This document shows positions 37,657-53,331 of a stretch of 64,000 bases of DNA, in pieces. The DNA lies in contig NZ_BOOO01000001.1 in assembly GCF_016863275.1 (NCBI RefSeq), forward strand, positions 124,001 to 188,000, read 5' to 3'. Origin of the DNA: Planotetraspora mira. GTDB taxonomy: Bacteria; Actinomycetota; Actinomycetes; Streptosporangiales; Streptosporangiaceae. The position numbers were made by a program, and so were the translations under genes. Under the pieces are notes generated by a model. It was not told the DNA's origin, did not search any database, and saw nothing but the letters and a program-made list of their open reading frames with translations. Position 1 is the first letter of the stretch; each line of letters starts with the position of its first letter.

Positions 37657-37906
37657 CTATGCCTCCTGGAGGGGCGGGGGACGGCGCATCCTCAGGCGAG
37701 AACCCGCCATCCTCGGAGAAATGACACCGCTGTGGTGCCGGAGAGAGCCGATAGTGATCGTATTCGGAGGTAATAAAACGGGCAAGAGGGGCAGAACTTA
37801 ACAAAGTCGCAGAATGAAATGTGCGGTTTTCGGGCATGATCCAGCGCCCTTTCCGGCCCGTCCGCAGATCCTGTGGGACGATTCAGGAGTTTCCGGAAGG
37901 GGTCAG

Positions 37907-39502
37907 GTGAACGACGGGCGTCGCATCGCGGGCAGGTATCACCTGCTCGAAGCCATCGGCCGCGGCGGCATGGGGATCGTCTGGCGTGCCCACGACGAGG
38001 TGCTCGACCGTACGGTGGTCGTCAAAGAGGTGCTCCACCGCACGGCGGACGCACAGGAGCGCGCGGCGTTCAACCAGCGGACCGTCCGCGAGGCACGGGC
38101 GGCCGGCCGTCTGTCCCACCCCGGCGTGGTCGTCGTCCATGACGTGATCGAGGAGGACGGCAGGCCCTGGATCGTCATGCAGTTCGTCCAGGGACGGTCG
38201 CTCGGCGCAGTGCTTCGCGAGTCGGGCCCGCTGCCGCCGCGACGGGTCGCCGACATCGGCCTCCAGGTGCTCGACGCCCTCCGTGCGGCACACGCCGCCG
38301 GGATCCTCCACCGTGACGTCAAACCCGAGAACGTCCTGCTCCAGCCCGACGGCAGGGTGGTCCTCACCGACTTCGGCATCGCCACCATGCCGGACGAGAC
38401 CGGGCTCACCACCACGGGCGCGGTGACGGGGACCCCGGCGTTCCTGCCGCCGGAACGGCTCAACGGGCGGTTCGCCACACCCGAGTCGGACCTGTGGTCG
38501 CTGGGCGCGACGATGTACACGGCCGTCGAGGGCAGGGCGCCGTTCGAACGCGACTCGGTCATCGCGACCATGGCGGCTGTGATCCACACGGAGCTCGATC
38601 CGCCACGGCGTGCGGGCTCCCTCACCCCCGTCATCGAAGGCCTGCTGGCCAAGGACCCCGCCCTCCGGATGACCGCCGAGACCGCCGCCGGGCTCCTGAA
38701 GGCCGCGTCGTCGGGGGCGGACGGCACGGGTTTCGGCCCGCCGTCCACCGGAGACGTCGCCGCCGAGCCTCTCCCACGCGTGACGTCGGCGCTGCCGTCC
38801 GGCCCGCATACGGTCTCGGCGCCGCCCTCTGGCCCGCACATCACCTCGGCGCCGCCGTCCGGCCCGCGCGGGCGGGGACGTGCCGGCGCACGTGTCGCAC
38901 TGGCCGCCCTGCTCTGCGTCGTGCTGGCCACCGGCGGCTGGTACGGCTATCGCCGGCTCGCGGACGGATCCGCCTCCGGCTCCGCGGCGTCTCCGGCCAC
39001 GCCCGCGAAGGTCACTCCGGCGGCCACGCCGTCCGCCGCTCACCCCGGCGCCGCCCTGCCCGCCGGCTGGACCATGCACAAGGATCCGCTGGGCTTCTCG
39101 GTCGCCCTGCCCAAGGGCTGGACCGCCTTCGACCGGCAGGCGGCGCGCGTGAGCTTCCACGACTCCAGCCGGAGCGGATACCTGCTGGTGGACTTCACGA
39201 AGTGGACGGCGGCCGATCCCGTGCCCGCGCTGACCGCCGTCGAGGCCGCATCGAGGAAGAAGGGGCTTCTTCCCGGCTACCAGCGCATCCGCCTGGCGGC
39301 CGTCCGCCAGCGCGGAGCGCCCGCCGCCGAGTGGGAGTTCACCTACACCCCGTCGTACGGCAGGGTCAGGGTCCTCGACCGGGCGTTCCGGCTGCCCGAC
39401 GGCGGATACGCCGCCCTCTACTGGCAGACGACCGACCGAACATGGACGACCACTATGTCCTATTTTAGGGTATTCTTGACCACATTCGTGCCTAATGAGT
39501 AA
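37907..39502 (+). CDS. Transmembrane Ser/Thr protein kinase with extracellular sensor domain (2 of 3)
   Basis: A 531-residue kinase. The kinase domain (10-270) has [24 protein letters not shown] and DFGIA. A linker with three SGPH-type repeats and a membrane helix (about 327-348) lead to an extracellular domain at 384-531 (PAGWTMHKDPLGFSVALPKGW, PGYQRIRLAAV, YAALYWQTT). That domain is clearly related to the one in kinase 1. The GTG at 37907 is preferred over an upstream frame because GGAAGGGG precedes it and it begins directly with GRYHLLEAIGRGG. The kinase 3 gene follows on the same strand after 88 bases. Confidence 0.93.
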   Translation: MNDGRRIAGRYHLLEAIGRGGMGIVWRAHDEVLDRTVVVKEVLHRTADAQERAAFNQRTVREARAAGRLSHPGVVVVHDVIEEDGRPWIVMQFVQGRSLGAVLRESGPLPPRRVADIGLQVLDALRAAHAAGILHRDVKPENVLLQPDGRVVLTDFGIATMPDETGLTTTGAVTGTPAFLPPERLNGRFATPESDLWSLGATMYTAVEGRAPFERDSVIATMAAVIHTELDPPRRAGSLTPVIEGLLAKDPALRMTAETAAGLLKAASSGADGTGFGPPSTGDVAAEPLPRVTSALPSGPHTVSAPPSGPHITSAPPSGPRGRGRAGARVALAALLCVVLATGGWYGYRRLADGSASGSAASPATPAKVTPAATPSAAHPGAALPAGWTMHKDPLGFSVALPKGWTAFDRQAARVSFHDSSRSGYLLVDFTKWTAADPVPALTAVEAASRKKGLLPGYQRIRLAAVRQRGAPAAEWEFTYTPSYGRVRVLDRAFRLPDGGYAALYWQTTDRTWTTTMSYFRVFLTTFVPNE

Positions 39503-39590
39503 AAGCAAAGGCGCCTGATCGCGGGGGGAATCGGCCGCAGGGCCTGGTTCCGCGGCATGAGCGTGTTCGAGAAGGGCAGCGCCACGGGCC

Positions 39591-41006
39591 ATGGCTGATG
39601 CGCAGACCTCCGATCGAGTGGTCGCCGGACGTTACCGGCTGATCGAGCCTCTCGGACGCGGCGGCATGGGGATCGTCTGGCGCGCCCTCGACGACGTGCT
39701 CCGCAGAGAGGTCGCCGTCAAGGAACTCACCGCTTCGGCGGGGCTCTCCGGCCAGGACCGGGAGACGTTCATCACACGGACCTTCCGGGAGGCGCGGGCC
39801 GCGGGACGGCTCAGCCATCCGGGCGTGGCCACGGTCTACGACGTCTTCGAAGAGGACGACCGCCTCTGGATCGTCCTGGAACTCGTCCCCTCCCGGACGC
39901 TCGGCTCCATCGTCCGCGAGGAGGGGCCGCTGCCTCCCCGGCGGGTGGCGGAGATCGGCGGCCAGGTCCTGGCCGCTCTCAGTGCCGCCCACGCGGCGGG
40001 CGTGCTCCATCGGGACGTCAAGCCCGAGAACGTGCTGATCGCCCACGACGGACGCGCGGTGCTGACCGACTTCGGGATCGCGGCGCTGGAGGACGATTCC
40101 CCGGTGACGCGCACCGGCATGCTCATCGGCACCCCGGCCTTCATGGCCCCGGAGCGGGCCAGCGGAGCCATGGCACGGCGCGCGTCGGACCTGTGGTCGC
40201 TCGGCGTGACCCTGTTCCTGGCCGCCGAGGGCCGATCGCCGTTCCAGCGTGGTCACGCGCTCGCGACGCTGGCGGCGGTCACCTACGAGGAGCCCGGGCC
40301 CATGCCGCAGGCCGGTCCTCTCGCTCCGATCATCACGGGACTGCTGGCCAAGGATCCCGCCCGGCGGATGACGGCCGAGCAAGCCGCGCCGCTGCTGCGG
40401 GCCGTGGCCGAACAGGCCGCCTCCGAGCCTCCCGTCGAGCTTCCCGCCACGCAGCCGGGCGGCCCACCCGCTCAGAGGTCGCGCACCGGCTCCCCCGTGC
40501 ATTCCCACCGGAGGACCGCGGGACGGCCGGCCGCCGCGTCCCCGTCGCCGTCCCGGCCTCGCCGGTCCCGCTACCGGCGCATTCCCTGGGTGTTCGCCGC
40601 GGTCGCCGCTTCCATGATCGCCGTCGCGGGTGTCGTGGTGGGCGGCGTCGCCTACGTGACCACACGGGATCCCGGCGCCGGATACACGCCGGTCAGCACG
40701 CCCACCGTGACCGTGTTCACCACCCGTACGGCGCAGCCCCCGCCGGGCGCGAATCAGGAGGCGGCGCAGTCGATGACGAACGCCGGCACCCGGTCAGGCG
40801 AGCCCGCCCCGCAGGCGACCCGTAAGCCGTCGACGTCCCCGGCCGGCTCCGGCTCCACGCACAAGGCGCAGCCGGAGCCCCGGATCGACGGGCCTCGCCG
40901 CGGCGAGGGCACGGGAGGCCGGGGAGGCTTCGGGAACGGTTACTGGAACAGGCACGACGACGGCGGGCAGAACCCCGGCTCTTCGCCGCCTAGCTCTCGT
41001 CGCTGA
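39591..41006 (+). CDS. Transmembrane Ser/Thr protein kinase without sensor domain (3 of 3)
   Basis: A 471-residue kinase. The kinase domain (12-275) is intact ([29 protein letters not shown]). After a basic stretch (RPRRSRYRR) comes a membrane helix at about 330-356 ([20 protein letters not shown]). The 115-residue outer tail is Pro/Gly/Ser-rich and ends in a Gly-rich segment, without the globular domain of its two relatives. The last 17 bases overlap the convergent rluD-like gene. Its targets are unknown; its position after kinase 2 suggests co-expression. Confidence 0.92.
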
Positions 41007-46899: not shown

Positions 46900-49191
46900 T
46901 CAGCGGGTCTGACAGACCGAGCAGTGCGTGAGGCCCGCCTGCTCGGCGTCCTCCTTGGTCATGACCTCGATGCTGTCGTCGTCGATGCCGCTGATGAGAG
47001 GGCACTCCGAGCTGTGGTAGCGGCGGGTGCCGACCATCACCTTCACCGACCCCGGTGCGACACGTCGCGCGGTGCCCGGACGGATGGCCGCGAACGTGTT
47101 GGTGTTGTCGTCGTCCTCCAGCTCCGCGGAACGGGCGTCACCTGCGTCCGCGTCGCGAGGCCCCTTCTCGCCGCGGCCGGCGGCTGCCTTGTCGACCGTG
47201 TCCTCGCCGGAGTCCTTCTCCGTGACCCGGGCCGTGTCCCCGGCCGTTTCCTTCGTCGCGTCCTTGGCCGGACCTTCGGCGTCGGAGTCCTTCGCCGTGA
47301 CCTTGACCGTGGTCGCTGCCCTGTCCTCGTTCTTGGCCTTGTCCCCGTTCTCGGCCCTGTCCTCGTTCTTGGCCTTGTCCCCGTTCCCGGCCCTGTCCTC
47401 CGTGGAGGCTCCGTCCTTCGCGTCACCGGACGCGCGACCCGCGGCATCTCCTGCAGGCCGTACGGGGCCGGACGCGGACTCAGCGCCCGCCTTGGAAGAA
47501 GCGGAGGCAGGCCTGTCAGTGGGAGCGGCGGCCGGCGCGTCAGGGGATCCCGCAGCGGACGCGCCCTGGGAAGCGGAACCCGGTGCGGAACCAGGAGAGG
47601 CGGGGATGGGCCGGAACCCGGCGCGCCCGGGTTGCGTGATCTCCGCCGCCGTCTCCGGCTCCGCGTCGGTGGTCCCTGTCACGTCGTCCCCGCGGTTCGC
47701 CGTGTCTGATCGGGACTTCCCGGTGCTCGGGGTATCGGCCGCCTTGGCCGTGACGCTCTCAGGCCGGGCAGTCTCGCGCCCGGCGCTCTTCGGGCTCCCG
47801 CTCTCGGGCTCGGCCCTGTTCGCCTCGGCGGCCTTCCGCCCGGCGCCCTCGGGCTCAGGACTCTCAGCCTCAGGACTCCTCGGCTCAGCGCTCTTCGGCT
47901 CAGCGCTCTTCGGTGCGGCGCTCTCCGTCTTCGCGCCCTCACCCGTCGCGGCCGGCTTCTTCGCACTCTCGGGCTCGGCGGTCCTCGGCCGTGAGCCCCC
48001 GGTCTCGGCGCCTCTGACCGCGTCGTTCTCAGACCCGGCCGTCGTGGCCTTCTCCGCACGACCCGAACCGGCCGGGGAGGACTCGGACGAGGAGGATCCG
48101 GGCTGCGCCGCCGCCGGCCTGCTTCTCGCCGCGCTGAACCAGTCGCCCTTGCCGTCCTGCTCAGACTGGACGGGCGAGCCCGCCGCCTTCTGCTCCGGCG
48201 GCGTCGGCCGGGAGTCGGCGCCCGAGGACGTGGGCGGCAACATGTTGCGCTGGAACCAGTCGAGTTGCGGTTTCTCGGTGCCGCCCGTCCCTGATGCGGC
48301 GGTCTCCGACGGGGTCTTCTCCGTCCGGGACTGCTCCGGCCGGGGCTGTTCGGAAGCGGTCCTCCGCCTGGCGGTGTCCGATCCGGCGGAGGAGCCGGGA
48401 ACGTCGCCGCCGGTCGCGGAGTCCTTGCCCGGGGCGGCGTCACGGGCGGAGACCGAGCGGTGAACGGTCACCGTGTCGTCGGCCGGCACGGAATCCTTGG
48501 TGACCTTGGGGTCTGTCGTGTCCCTGCCACCCGTCGCGCCCGCCGGGCGGGTGGGTCCCGCCTCGGCACGCGAGCCCTGCCGACGGGTCGGCCTGGGCTG
48601 CGGAGGCTCGTCCACCACGCGGGGGGACAGCTCGGGCAGGCAGGTGGTGCAGGGGCTGAAGCCCTCTTCGCGGGCTTCCTCGTAGGTCAGCTCCTCGACC
48701 TCGCGGCCCATGAGCTGACGGCAGTTCGCCACATGGAAACGCCTACGGCCCGGGACGACCAGCACGATGTCCTCGGGGCCGAGCGGACGACCTGTATGCG
48801 CCGGCGAACGCCTGAGGGGGGCCGTCGCTCCGGCTTGACGGGGCGGGAACGGCGTGGGTGGCAGCGCCCCGTGGTGTGTTCCCGGCGGCGCCTGTGTCGG
48901 CGTGGTCACCGGGTGTCCCGGCGCCCCGCTGATGGCGGGGGCTCCGGCATGCGCGAGCTGGGAGACGGAGGAGGAACCCTGGGGGGTGAGATCCGGCCCG
49001 TCGGCGGCACGCCCACCGGCGGGGAACAGCAGATGACGCTTCACCAGCGCCCCGATGAGCAGGCAGACGGCGGCCAGAACCGCGATCACCATCGACCACA
49101 TCACCAGGTACACCTTCGCCAGCGCCCACCCCGCGATGAGGATGAGGAGGGCGGCGATGGCGAACGCCAAAGCAGCGCTGAAGAGGATCAC
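46900..49191 (-). CDS. Membrane-anchored protein with two HxxxC...CxxC zinc-type modules joined by a long disordered linker
   Basis: A 763-residue protein I cannot assign to a named family. Two membrane helices (residues 1-50) are followed by a Pro/Gly linker. A compact module at 142-187 has His153, Cys157, Cys181 and Cys184 (RFHVANCRQL, GFSPCTTC). A 520-residue Ala/Ser/Glu/Lys-rich disordered region includes two DWF motifs (DWFQRNM, DWFSAAR) and tandem repeats. A second module at 716-763 has His726, Cys730, Cys757 and Cys760 (RYHSSECPLI, LTHCSVC). The modules resemble small Ada-like zinc domains. Both face the same side, probably the cytosol. It lies 54 bases after divIVA, in the dcw transcription direction; in the usual actinobacterial order ileS directly follows divIVA. 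Confidence 0.8.
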   Translation of the reverse strand: MILFSAALAFAIAALLILIAGWALAKVYLVMWSMVIAVLAAVCLLIGALVKRHLLFPAGGRAADGPDLTPQGSSSVSQLAHAGAPAISGAPGHPVTTPTQAPPGTHHGALPPTPFPPRQAGATAPLRRSPAHTGRPLGPEDIVLVVPGRRRFHVANCRQLMGREVEELTYEEAREEGFSPCTTCLPELSPRVVDEPPQPRPTRRQGSRAEAGPTRPAGATGGRDTTDPKVTKDSVPADDTVTVHRSVSARDAAPGKDSATGGDVPGSSAGSDTARRRTASEQPRPEQSRTEKTPSETAASGTGGTEKPQLDWFQRNMLPPTSSGADSRPTPPEQKAAGSPVQSEQDGKGDWFSAARSRPAAAQPGSSSSESSPAGSGRAEKATTAGSENDAVRGAETGGSRPRTAEPESAKKPAATGEGAKTESAAPKSAEPKSAEPRSPEAESPEPEGAGRKAAEANRAEPESGSPKSAGRETARPESVTAKAADTPSTGKSRSDTANRGDDVTGTTDAEPETAAEITQPGRAGFRPIPASPGSAPGSASQGASAAGSPDAPAAAPTDRPASASSKAGAESASGPVRPAGDAAGRASGDAKDGASTEDRAGNGDKAKNEDRAENGDKAKNEDRAATTVKVTAKDSDAEGPAKDATKETAGDTARVTEKDSGEDTVDKAAAGRGEKGPRDADAGDARSAELEDDDNTNTFAAIRPGTARRVAPGSVKVMVGTRRYHSSECPLISGIDDDSIEVMTKEDAEQAGLTHCSVCQTR
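47321..47400 (-). repeat. 36-bp in-frame tandem repeat inside the linker
   Basis: Units at 47321-47356 and 47357-47392 plus eight further bases differ at one position and encode a 12-residue Asn/Glu/Asp/Lys/Ala/Arg repeat. Copy number may vary between strains. Confidence 0.85.
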
Positions 49192-49245
49192 AGGGGGTTT
49201 CTCCGAGCTTGCGGGTCGCGGGGGGGCCAGGGGGTGACCCGCGGC

Positions 49246-50112
49246 CTACCTGCGGTCGGTGTGCTGCCCGTCAGGTCCGGGGAACGAGCCCGTGTGCTGC
49301 GAGGGCTCCTGACCGAACGGGTTGGGAGCCGCCTGCATCGGCTGGCCGCCCTGGGCGACGGCGTGCGCCATCGCCGGTGCTCCGCCCACCATGGGGAAGC
49401 CGCCGCTGCCCTCCGCCGCGACGGTGAGCTCCGCGAGCTGGTTCTCCAGGTAGAGCTTCAACCGGCTGCGGTACTCGCGCTCGAAGCTGCGCAGTTCCTC
49501 GACCTTGCGCTCGAGCTCGTCGCGGGTCTGCACCAGCGAGCCCATGGCCTGGCGGTGCCGCTCCTGCGCGTCGCGCTCCAGCGTCTCGGCCCGGGCGCGG
49601 GCGTCGCCGATGATCTGCTCGGCCTGGCGGCGTGCCTTGCCGAGGATGTCGTCGGCCTCGCGGCGGGCACGGGTCACCGTCTCGTCCGCCTCCCGGCGGG
49701 CGTCGGCGATGGCCTGGTCGGCGGTCTGCTGCGCGAGGGCGAGGACACGGGCCGCGGTGTCCATGTTGTCCTCGGCGGGCGGCAGGCCCATGCCGACGGG
49801 GACGGGCTCGGGACGCGCAGGCTCCGGGGGCTTGATCGGCTCAGGCTGAGGGATCATCATCTCCGGCTTGGGCTCGGCGATGGGGGCCGCCATCTGCATG
49901 GGACCTCCCATGCCCATGCCCATGCCACCGGGGACCTTGCCCCTCAGGCATTCGGCCAGCTTCGCACGGAGCTCCTCGTTCTCCTGAATGAGGCGGTCGA
50001 GCTCGGCCTCCACCTCATCGAGGAAAGCGTCTACCTCCTCCTCGTCGTACCCCGGCCGAAGCCGGGTGGTACTGAACTGCTTGTTCCGCACATCAGCGGG
50101 CGTCAACGGCAT
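49246..50112 (-). CDS. divIVA: DivIVA (Wag31) polar growth protein
   Basis: A 288-residue coiled-coil scaffold that binds curved membrane and directs polar wall growth. The N-terminal DivIVA domain (LTPADVRNKQFSTTRLRPGY, EEEVDAFLDEVEAELDRL) covers residues 1-60. A Met/Pro/Gly-rich linker (residues 60-115) follows, then a long coiled coil (about 115-235, ADARREADETVTRARREADD) and a Gly/Pro/Gln tail. AAGGAG lies seven bases before the ATG. In actinobacteria DivIVA is essential for tip growth and is often phosphorylated by Ser/Thr kinases; phosphorylation here is not shown by the sequence. Confidence 0.96.
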   Translation of the reverse strand: MPLTPADVRNKQFSTTRLRPGYDEEEVDAFLDEVEAELDRLIQENEELRAKLAECLRGKVPGGMGMGMGGPMQMAAPIAEPKPEMMIPQPEPIKPPEPARPEPVPVGMGLPPAEDNMDTAARVLALAQQTADQAIADARREADETVTRARREADDILGKARRQAEQIIGDARARAETLERDAQERHRQAMGSLVQTRDELERKVEELRSFEREYRSRLKLYLENQLAELTVAAEGSGGFPMVGGAPAMAHAVAQGGQPMQAAPNPFGQEPSQHTGSFPGPDGQHTDRR

Positions 50113-50163: not shown

Positions 50164-50451
50164 TCAACGAAACGCGTTCACGACTTGGATCAAGACCAAA
50201 ACCACAATGAACAGCACAGTGAAGCTCAGGTCAAAGGCCACCGTACCCAACCTGAGGGGCGGAATGAAACGGCGGAGGAATTTGAGAGGAGGGTCTGTCA
50301 CCGTGTAGATCGCCTCCGCCAGCACCAGAACGACCCCGGAAGGCCGCCAGGAGCGGGCGAAAGCCTGCACCGTCTCAAAGATCATTCTGCCGATCAGCAG
50401 AATCAGATAGAGAGTGAGGGCGATGGACAAGATCTCGCTAACGATCCCCAT
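50164..50451 (-). CDS. YggT-family membrane protein
   Basis: A 95-residue protein with two membrane segments (ILSIALTLYLILLIGRMIFE, and FDLSFTVLFIVVLVLIQVV) and the YggT-type loop TDPPLKFLRRFIPPLRLG between them. The family lies between sepF and divIVA in many Gram-positive dcw clusters and is thought to act in envelope or division processes, with no defined activity. A GGAGG box lies 12 bases before the ATG, a long spacing. Confidence 0.9.
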   Translation of the reverse strand: MGIVSEILSIALTLYLILLIGRMIFETVQAFARSWRPSGVVLVLAEAIYTVTDPPLKFLRRFIPPLRLGTVAFDLSFTVLFIVVLVLIQVVNAFR

Positions 50452-51195: not shown

Positions 51196-51909
51196 TTACC
51201 TGACGAAGGGCTTCCGGCGACCGAGCAACGCCGTACCGACACGCAGGTGTGTCGCGCCGTTCGCTATCGCCTGGGCCAGATCTCCGCTCATACCCGCGGA
51301 TATGACGTCTGCTGCCGGGTGTTCCTTCTGTACGGCTTGAGCCACCGAGTAAAGCCGGGCAAAGGCTTCTCCCGGGTCCTCTCCGAGCGGCGCGACCGCC
51401 ATGACGCCCCGCAACCGGAGGCCGTCCGCCCTGGTCACGGCCTCGGCCAGAGGCAGAACCCCGGCCGGCGCCACCCCGCCCCGCTCCGCCGGGCCGCCTT
51501 CCCCGCCGCCCAAGGCGACCTGGATGAGGCAGCCCACCTCGCGCTCCTGCCGTACGGCCTCGCGGCTCAGCGCGTCCACCAGCCGGGAACGGTCGACCGA
51601 GTGGACGACGTCCGCGTAGGAGACGACCGAGCGGACCTTGTTGGTCTGTAACTGGCCGATGAAATGCCAGGTGAGACCCAGATCACCGCATTCGGCGGCC
51701 TTGTCGGCCGCCTCCTGGTCCCGGTTCTCGCCGATGTCGGTCACTCCGAGCCCCGCGAGCACGCGCACGTCGGAGGCCGGATACGTCTTGGTCACCGCGA
51801 TGATCGTGATGTCCGAGCGGGCCCGTCCGGCCGCCCGGCAGGCCTGTTCGACACGCCGTTCGACGTCCGCCAGACCCGCCGCGATCTCATCGCGCCGTGC
51901 GTCATCCAC
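51196..51909 (-). CDS. YggS/PLPBP-family PLP-binding protein
   Basis: A 237-residue protein with the alanine-racemase-like fold type III barrel and one bound PLP, implicated in vitamin B6 homeostasis. The PLP lysine is in IIAVTKTYPASDV near residue 41. Visible too are GENRDQEAADKA, WHFIGQLQTNKV, SAGMSGDLAQAI with the phosphate-binding Ser/Gly, and RVGTALLG. It starts 12 bases after ftsZ. The laccase-domain gene pgeF, often found between these two, is absent. Confidence 0.92.
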   Translation of the reverse strand: MDDARRDEIAAGLADVERRVEQACRAAGRARSDITIIAVTKTYPASDVRVLAGLGVTDIGENRDQEAADKAAECGDLGLTWHFIGQLQTNKVRSVVSYADVVHSVDRSRLVDALSREAVRQEREVGCLIQVALGGGEGGPAERGGVAPAGVLPLAEAVTRADGLRLRGVMAVAPLGEDPGEAFARLYSVAQAVQKEHPAADVISAGMSGDLAQAIANGATHLRVGTALLGRRKPFVR

Positions 51910-51921
51910 GTGGTGCGGTGC

Positions 51922-53331
51922 TCACTTGAGGAAGTCCGGCACGTCGAGCTCCTCCTCCTGCTCCTCGAACACCACGGGACGGCGCGGGGCCGGCTGGGTG
52001 ACGCGCGAGGTGATGGGAGTGGGCGGCTCCGGCGTGGGCCGCGGAATCGACAACGGTCCCGAGGTGCTCGCCTGCCCCTGCTCGGAACGGGCGCCCCCCT
52101 CGGCCGCCGCGTCCCGGCCGAACTGCGCCGATCCCTCGGACGCCGCGGCGGGCTGCGCCGCCGGTGCGACCGGCTGGCTCACGGGCGGTGCGGGCGGCGC
52201 CGCGGATCCCGCCGACGGAGCGACCGGCGGGACCGGCGTGGCGATCGGCCGGTTCAGCGGCAGGTCGGCCCGGACCTCCGGCTTGGCCGGTGCGGGCGGC
52301 GGCGCGGGCCGCGACGAGGGCGCCGGCGTCGGCGGGCGGGTCTGCTGGGGCCTCGACAGCGGCGCGGCCGCCGGCTTGGTCACGGCCGGCTCGTCGAACC
52401 CCGCGGCGATGACCGTCACGCGGACCTCGTCGCCGAGCGCGTCGTCGATGACCGTACCGAAGATGATGTTGGCGTCGGACGCGGCCGCGCTGGACACGAG
52501 CTGGGCCGCCTCGTTGATCTCGAAGAGACCGAGGTCGGACCCGCCGGCGATCGACAGGAGCACGCCGTGCGCGCCGTCGATGCTGGCCTCGAGCAGCGGG
52601 CTGGACACCGCCATCTCGGCCGCCGCGACGGAGCGGTCGTCTCCCCTGGCGTGACCGATGCCCATGAGGGCGGAACCGGCGCCGGACATGACCGACTTCA
52701 CGTCGGCGAAGTCCAGGTTGATCAGGCCGGGCGTGGTGATCAGGTCGGTGATGCCCTGGACACCGGACAGCAGGACCTGGTCGGCGGCCTTGAACGCGTC
52801 GAGCACGCTGACCTGACGGTCGGAGATCGACAGCAGCCGGTCGTTCGGGATGACGATGAGGGTGTCGACGTCCTCGCGGAGGGTCTCGATGCCGGCCTCG
52901 GCCTGCATGGCCCGGCGCTTGCCCTCGAAGCTGAAGGGCCGGGTGACCACACCTATGGTCAGAGCACCCAGGGACCGGGCGATGCCGGCCACGACCGGCG
53001 CGCCGCCGGTGCCGGTGCCGCCACCCTCTCCTGCGGTGACGAAGACCATGTCGGCGCCCTTGAGGACTTCCTCGATCTCCTCGCGGTGGTCCTCGGCGGC
53101 CTTGCGGCCGACGTCCGGGTTCGCCCCGGCTCCGAGACCCCGGGTGAGCTCACGCCCGACGTCGAGCTTCACATCGGCGTCACTCATCAGCAGCGCCTGG
53201 GCGTCGGTATTGATGGCGATGAACTCGACGCCCTTGAGTCCCTCCTCGATCATCCGGTTTACGGCGTTCACTCCGCCGCCGCCGATGCCGACGACCTTGA
53301 TGACCGCGAGGTAGTTCTGCGGTGCTGCCAC
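51922..53331 (-). CDS. ftsZ: Cell division GTPase FtsZ
   Basis: A 469-residue tubulin homologue that forms the Z ring. The GTPase core has [14 protein letters not shown], the tubulin signature [10 protein letters not shown] (101-110) and the T7 loop [11 protein letters not shown] with the catalytic Asp. A Pro/Ala-rich linker of about 140 residues leads to the C-terminal peptide [10 protein letters not shown], which binds SepF. The start is ATG at 53331 ([14 protein letters not shown]). The 220-base upstream region holds a long dyad and TTGACA (see 53386-53433). Confidence 0.98.

Follow-up and report, generated by a model that had tools for sequence, protein, structure and literature searches.

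A predicted membrane protein with two Ada-like modules encoded directly behind divIVA in Planotetraspora mira and its relatives

Results

Genes at the divIVA Locus

The gene described here lies in a 64,000-nt stretch of the Planotetraspora mira genome (the window) and encodes a predicted membrane protein that carries an Ada-like module at either end of a long low-complexity linker (Table 1). An earlier note on this DNA had given the same coordinates, strand and length, as well as the same eight His/Cys positions. The gene order along the minus strand is ftsQ, ftsZ, a gene of the YggS/YlmE type, sepF, a YGGT-family gene, divIVA, and the gene for the 763-aa protein, which starts 54 bp after divIVA; the YGGT-family gene, at 95 aa, falls under the length limit of the open-reading-frame lists used. 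The gene had been placed between ileS and divIVA, reading with divIVA, and this is the arrangement found, with the added precision that ileS is on the plus strand and convergent with it. A simple sigma-70 scan returned no promoter, and no terminator between divIVA and the gene, a result that counts neither way. Searching NCBIfam with the 763-aa protein gave a chance match only, no effector domain was detected by Pfam or NCBIfam, and no gene-specific description was found in the titles and abstracts of the open-licence literature.

Elsewhere in the region, ylmD appears to be missing between ftsZ and the ylmE-type gene, and these genes nearly touch (51909-51922). The corresponding gap is shorter than 300 bp in 91 of 106 loci (L033-L152, with some genomes counted twice), and a ylmD-family gene (PF02578) is present elsewhere in the genome, on contig C34. 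In Streptomyces coelicolor, deletion of ylmD is reported to rescue ylmE defects (PMC5943314). A tandem pair of protein kinase genes was also noted on the plus strand (window positions 37814-41006).

Table 1. Features of the 763-aa protein gene and its upstream neighbors; positions are those of the window.
Feature	Positions	Strand	Basis
Whole gene, 763 aa, GTG start	46900..49191	-	Relatives at 80 loci
GGAG 9 nt ahead of the GTG, likely ribosome-binding site	49201..49204	-	Read from sequence
Two-helix membrane hairpin, residues 1-52, then KRH	49036..49191	-	Hydropathy, hairpin profile; topology inferred
Ada-like module 1, residues 140-187, ligands H153 C157 C181 C184	48631..48774	-	Conservation, predicted fold
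Low-complexity linker, residues 188-714, presumably disordered	47050..48630	-	Composition, fast evolution, variable length
Linker motif copy 1, D311-W-F (DWFQR)	48253..48261	-	
Linker motif copy 2, D350-W-F (DWFSA)	48136..48144	-	
Ada-like module 2, residues 715-763, C-terminus, ligands H726 C730 C757 C760	46903..47049	-	Conservation, predicted fold
divIVA, directly upstream	49246..50112	-	Pfam DivIVA, 6.1e-20
YGGT-family gene (ylmG/sepG by position), 95-aa membrane protein, between sepF and divIVA	50164..50451	-	

Conservation of the Gene and Its Position

Of 100 relatives searched, 51 had matches at E up to 0.01, with doubt over the weakest. For comparison of the loci, the best 80 of 197 relatives were used, from genera including Planotetraspora, Microbispora, Nonomuraea, Streptosporangium, and similar, which we take to be Streptosporangiaceae; the nearest relative is Planotetraspora silvatica (98% identity in module 1). 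Among these best 80, divIVA is directly upstream at 79 loci, as the proposed neighborhood would have it, and the remaining locus is cut by the contig start. At 68 of these 79 loci the gene starts 42-59 nt past the divIVA match, and at 44 of the 79 a GGAG, GAGG, or GGGA sequence lies 4-18 nt ahead of the chosen start. Within the fetched stretch, ileS is present and convergent at 66 of the 80 loci, and it lies within 1 kb of the gene end at 48. Both modules are present in the open reading frame in 75/80; of the other five, three are truncated at a contig edge, L138 carries module 2 in a different frame, and L124 has module 1 alone. A chance or spurious reading frame is ruled out by this conservation, together with the dN/dS values given below. 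No second family member turned up in the genome: searched with the modules, it yielded nothing but the two themselves at E up to 0.01, and weaker rows with E of 0.41 (one of the genome's Ada places) and 0.75 were set aside.

N-Terminal Hairpin and His/Cys Modules

The two N-terminal membrane helices proposed earlier correspond to a hydrophobic stretch at residues ∼1-52 in the hydropathy plot, and the positive-inside rule predicts that the residues that follow are cytoplasmic. With a profile built for this hairpin, 34 of 41 hairpins left out of the profile score above the best of 820 shuffles; those of L174, L179, L184, L186, L187, L070, and L190 do not beat the best shuffle, and their homology is judged from position and look. 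Values of dN/dS for the hairpin in four species pairs are 0.12, 0.77, 0.14, and 0.26, of which 0.77 stems from few synonymous changes.

The HxxxC...CxxC pattern occurs twice per polypeptide, with three conserved Cys in each module. Module 1 and module 2 are homologs (hhalign probability 99.4), and non-ligand columns are conserved in both module alignments; the ligand columns are invariant partly because the rows were chosen by ligand pattern. In the four species pairs, dN/dS is 0.07, 0.10, 0.09, and 0.19 for module 1, and 0.10, 0.07, 0.94, and 0.22 for module 2 (0.94 being derived from few synonymous changes); the modules are thus mostly under purifying selection, the exception being one of the four pairs for module 2.

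Both modules fold well in AF2 prediction (pLDDT 91 for module 1 and 86 for module 2), and homologs keep the His/Cys ligands. The structural matches listed for both are Ada N-domains, with nothing else among the matches listed, which upholds the Ada-like character suggested in the earlier note; the fold is common to the modules and the Ada N-terminal metal-binding domain (PF02805; 1u8b, 1zgw, 1adn, and 1wpk). Zinc would be structural in both modules; their ligand pattern is conserved, and AF2 places no metal. Pfam recognition of the modules stays below threshold: at E up to 10, Ada_Zn_binding and DUF6233 are found, and these only, but both fall under the cut-off. For PF02805 the window protein reaches 17.4 bits against a curated cut-off of 23, over residues 169-187 only, and module 2 alone gives no match to this family. 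A sequence search of the PDB returned Ada at E of at least 0.11 (module 1) and at least 1.6 (module 2), amid unrelated weak matches. The module-1 profile also finds matches (E up to 1e-4) in 58 of 394 genomes drawn from across the class.

Linker and WF Motif

The linker comprises 527 residues, chiefly A (97), S (58), G (57), P (53), and T (47). Its composition and length, and its fast evolution (dN/dS of 0.63, 0.61, 0.72, and 0.57 in the four species pairs), point to disorder, in line with the ∼520-residue disordered linker described before; its length also varies among relatives (103-650 residues in 76 proteins), as expected of the flexible spacer then envisaged. Two features had gone unmentioned: a conserved W-F-x-R motif in the linker, and the range of the module spacing, which is 149-696 aa in 75 proteins from the best 80 of 197 relatives. 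This range rules out a fixed spacing that would act as a ruler.

The WF dipeptide occurs in 67 of the 76 linkers, against 1.2 on average and at most 6 in 200 shuffles, a comparison that ignores common descent; the sequences are related and hence not independent, so that the excess indicates conservation and should not be read as a probability. Across 84 WF copies, 59 have R two residues past F (WFxR), and 78 have D, G, or S before W. WF is missing from the other nine linkers, and also from the distant two-module proteins L054-L056 and L058-L060 (the L059 stretch starts within the gene, leaving out its hairpin and divIVA).

Tails Differ by Lineage

A further 48 same-family genomes were chosen by the presence or absence of hits, and are therefore a non-random set that overlaps with the 80-relative sample. 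Both modules were found in 24, module 1 only in five (two of them cut by contig ends), the C-terminal module only in five, and neither in 14. The earlier note had asked whether the gene is fixed between ileS and divIVA in Streptosporangiaceae; within the family the gene is kept, but its modules are absent in 14/48. All 14 of the module-less proteins carry T-[DG]-x-[LV]-G-K-[AS]-S-V in the tail. These proteins (L070, L071, L174, L176, and L178-L187), encoded behind divIVA, share a nearly invariant peptide of the TDGLGKASV type; in L182 the tail motif is present, but none of the start codons tried yields a hairpin.

Outside the family, divIVA is followed by a gene with two modules, 83-257 residues apart, in L062-L065, L067, L153, L165, and L166, and by a gene with a single module in L154-L156 and L158, while the contig of L066 stops after module 1. 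In L157 and L159, the module lies beside ileS, and no divIVA was seen on the stretch. L190, L197, and L201 have a hairpin whose tail is short or missing. No such hairpin was seen behind divIVA in L188, L189, L191-L193, L195, L196, or L198-L200; in L192, divIVA and ileS are close together with no such hairpin between them, and in L194 a different membrane protein follows divIVA. The modules are dispensable for the core function, because several lineages keep the gene without them. Of all its parts, the small hairpin behind divIVA is the one retained most widely. The hairpin looks older than the modules, because other lineages here keep one module, none, or barely more than the hairpin; it would be the ancestral element, with modules and tails as add-ons gained, lost, or replaced by lineages.

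Some of the class-wide matches to the module-1 profile fall on other short membrane proteins, either with two helices by eye and one C-terminal HxxxC...CxxC module (L161-L163 and L167-L171) or with a similar module and one helix by eye (L160). No convincing divIVA was seen in the fetched stretch for any of these, and the module is therefore not specific to the divIVA locus.

Discussion

A Candidate Adaptor in the DivIVA Neighborhood

In actinomycetes, divIVA is the key gene of polar growth, and the gathering of membrane factors around it is, to our knowledge, incompletely understood. Starting from the established fold, conservation, and position, we favor, at a probability of roughly 0.45, an adaptor that is tethered to the membrane, binds proteins, and is co-expressed with DivIVA. 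The hairpin would sit in the cytoplasmic membrane, with all later residues in the cytoplasm. Module 1, module 2, and the WF motif can be read as three docking elements, each of which may bind a partner, either DivIVA or one of its clients; the linker would allow a single tether to reach several partners and cluster them near the membrane. It is gene order that ties the protein to DivIVA, and the protein would presumably have a polar location. This reading is weakened by the lineages that keep the gene without modules, by the proteins that lack WF, by the positively charged copies of module 2, by the dN/dS of 0.94 for module 2 in one species pair, and by the similar modules on membrane proteins away from divIVA.

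It is possible, if doubtful, that the protein also represents an undescribed class of actinomycete DivIVA-neighborhood tethers, in which an ancient two-helix anchor with lineage-interchangeable cytoplasmic tails recruits partners specific to each lineage to growing poles or septa. The tails of such a class would include two Ada-derived modules plus WF-x-R over 100-650 residues, the TDGLGKASV-type peptide, or next to nothing. With its place behind divIVA kept in several families and its tails exchangeable, the gene provides a route to candidate partners.

Three other explanations were weighed against the adaptor. The protein could have an unrelated job in the membrane and merely share the divIVA transcript, a reading that draws on gene order being the sole link to DivIVA and on the membrane proteins elsewhere that carry related modules; we regard it as unlikely, given that the position is kept across several families though the content changes. 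Alternatively, the zinc-thiolate modules could respond to zinc, oxidants, or electrophiles and alter growth or division at the membrane. The three conserved Cys of each module would suit such a sensor, and in Ada the alkyl group is accepted by a Cys that binds zinc. However, both modules have His at the first-ligand position, which we take to be that of the reactive Cys of Ada, whereas Cys is found there in the genome's two strong Ada matches; modules are absent from whole lineages, and Pfam and NCBIfam revealed no effector domain. We regard a sensor as unlikely.

The earlier note had further proposed that the protein could bridge the membrane and nucleic acid or protein, and the nucleic-acid half of this bridge fares poorly. 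A tether whose Ada-like modules bind DNA or RNA, and so hold nucleic acid at the polar membrane, would be in keeping with a module fold that is that of a DNA-binding domain, and the neighboring ylmG/sepG is reported to affect nucleoid shape in Streptomyces (PMC4852450). Against it, the net charge is −2 and −3 in window modules 1 and 2 vs. +5 and +8 in the two same-genome Ada domains, the knuckles are CTTC and CSVC rather than the basic CKRC and CRRC, and the linker has a net charge of −12. Judged by net charge, the basic DNA-binding surface of Ada thus appears to be lacking in the window modules. Over 76 proteins, the charge averages −1.9 (−3 to 0) for module 1 and −0.9 (−4 to +3) for module 2, and the upper end of the module-2 range is a reservation on this argument. 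Because charge, knuckles, and the His first ligand differ from Ada, DNA binding and alkyl transfer in the manner of Ada are both disfavored, and we consider a nucleoid tether very unlikely.

Comparison With Ada, DUF6233, and YlmG/SepG

In the window protein a known fold takes a new form, and the open-licence literature gave no description of its architecture. Compared with the Ada N-domain, the window protein has two copies on a membrane tether, in which the basic knuckle and the first Cys have been lost. In the Ada DNA-repair protein, this domain is linked to HTH and methyltransferase domains, which are absent from the window protein by Pfam (E up to 10). The window gene is ruled out as the cell's own Ada protein, as the Ada_Zn_binding cut-off is exceeded at three other sites in the genome: two (107 and 105 bits) have the four-Cys pattern, and the third (34 bits; a 109-aa frame on contig C20) has no such ligand pattern.

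DUF6233 (PF19746), a listed family of unknown function, is matched by 30/30 module-1 rows at E up to 1 (best 7.2e-5) and by 12/30 module-2 rows, although window module 1 misses its cut-off (17.8 vs. 27.6 bits); no papers naming DUF6233 were found in the open-licence literature. YlmG/SepG of Streptomyces is encoded before divIVA, and the window's own YGGT-family gene at that place has no HxxxC...CxxC module. YlmG/SepG is reported to be a small membrane protein with two membrane-spanning domains that is needed for the membrane localization of a division factor, and its likeness to the window protein lies in being a small two-span membrane protein of the same cluster (PMC4852450).
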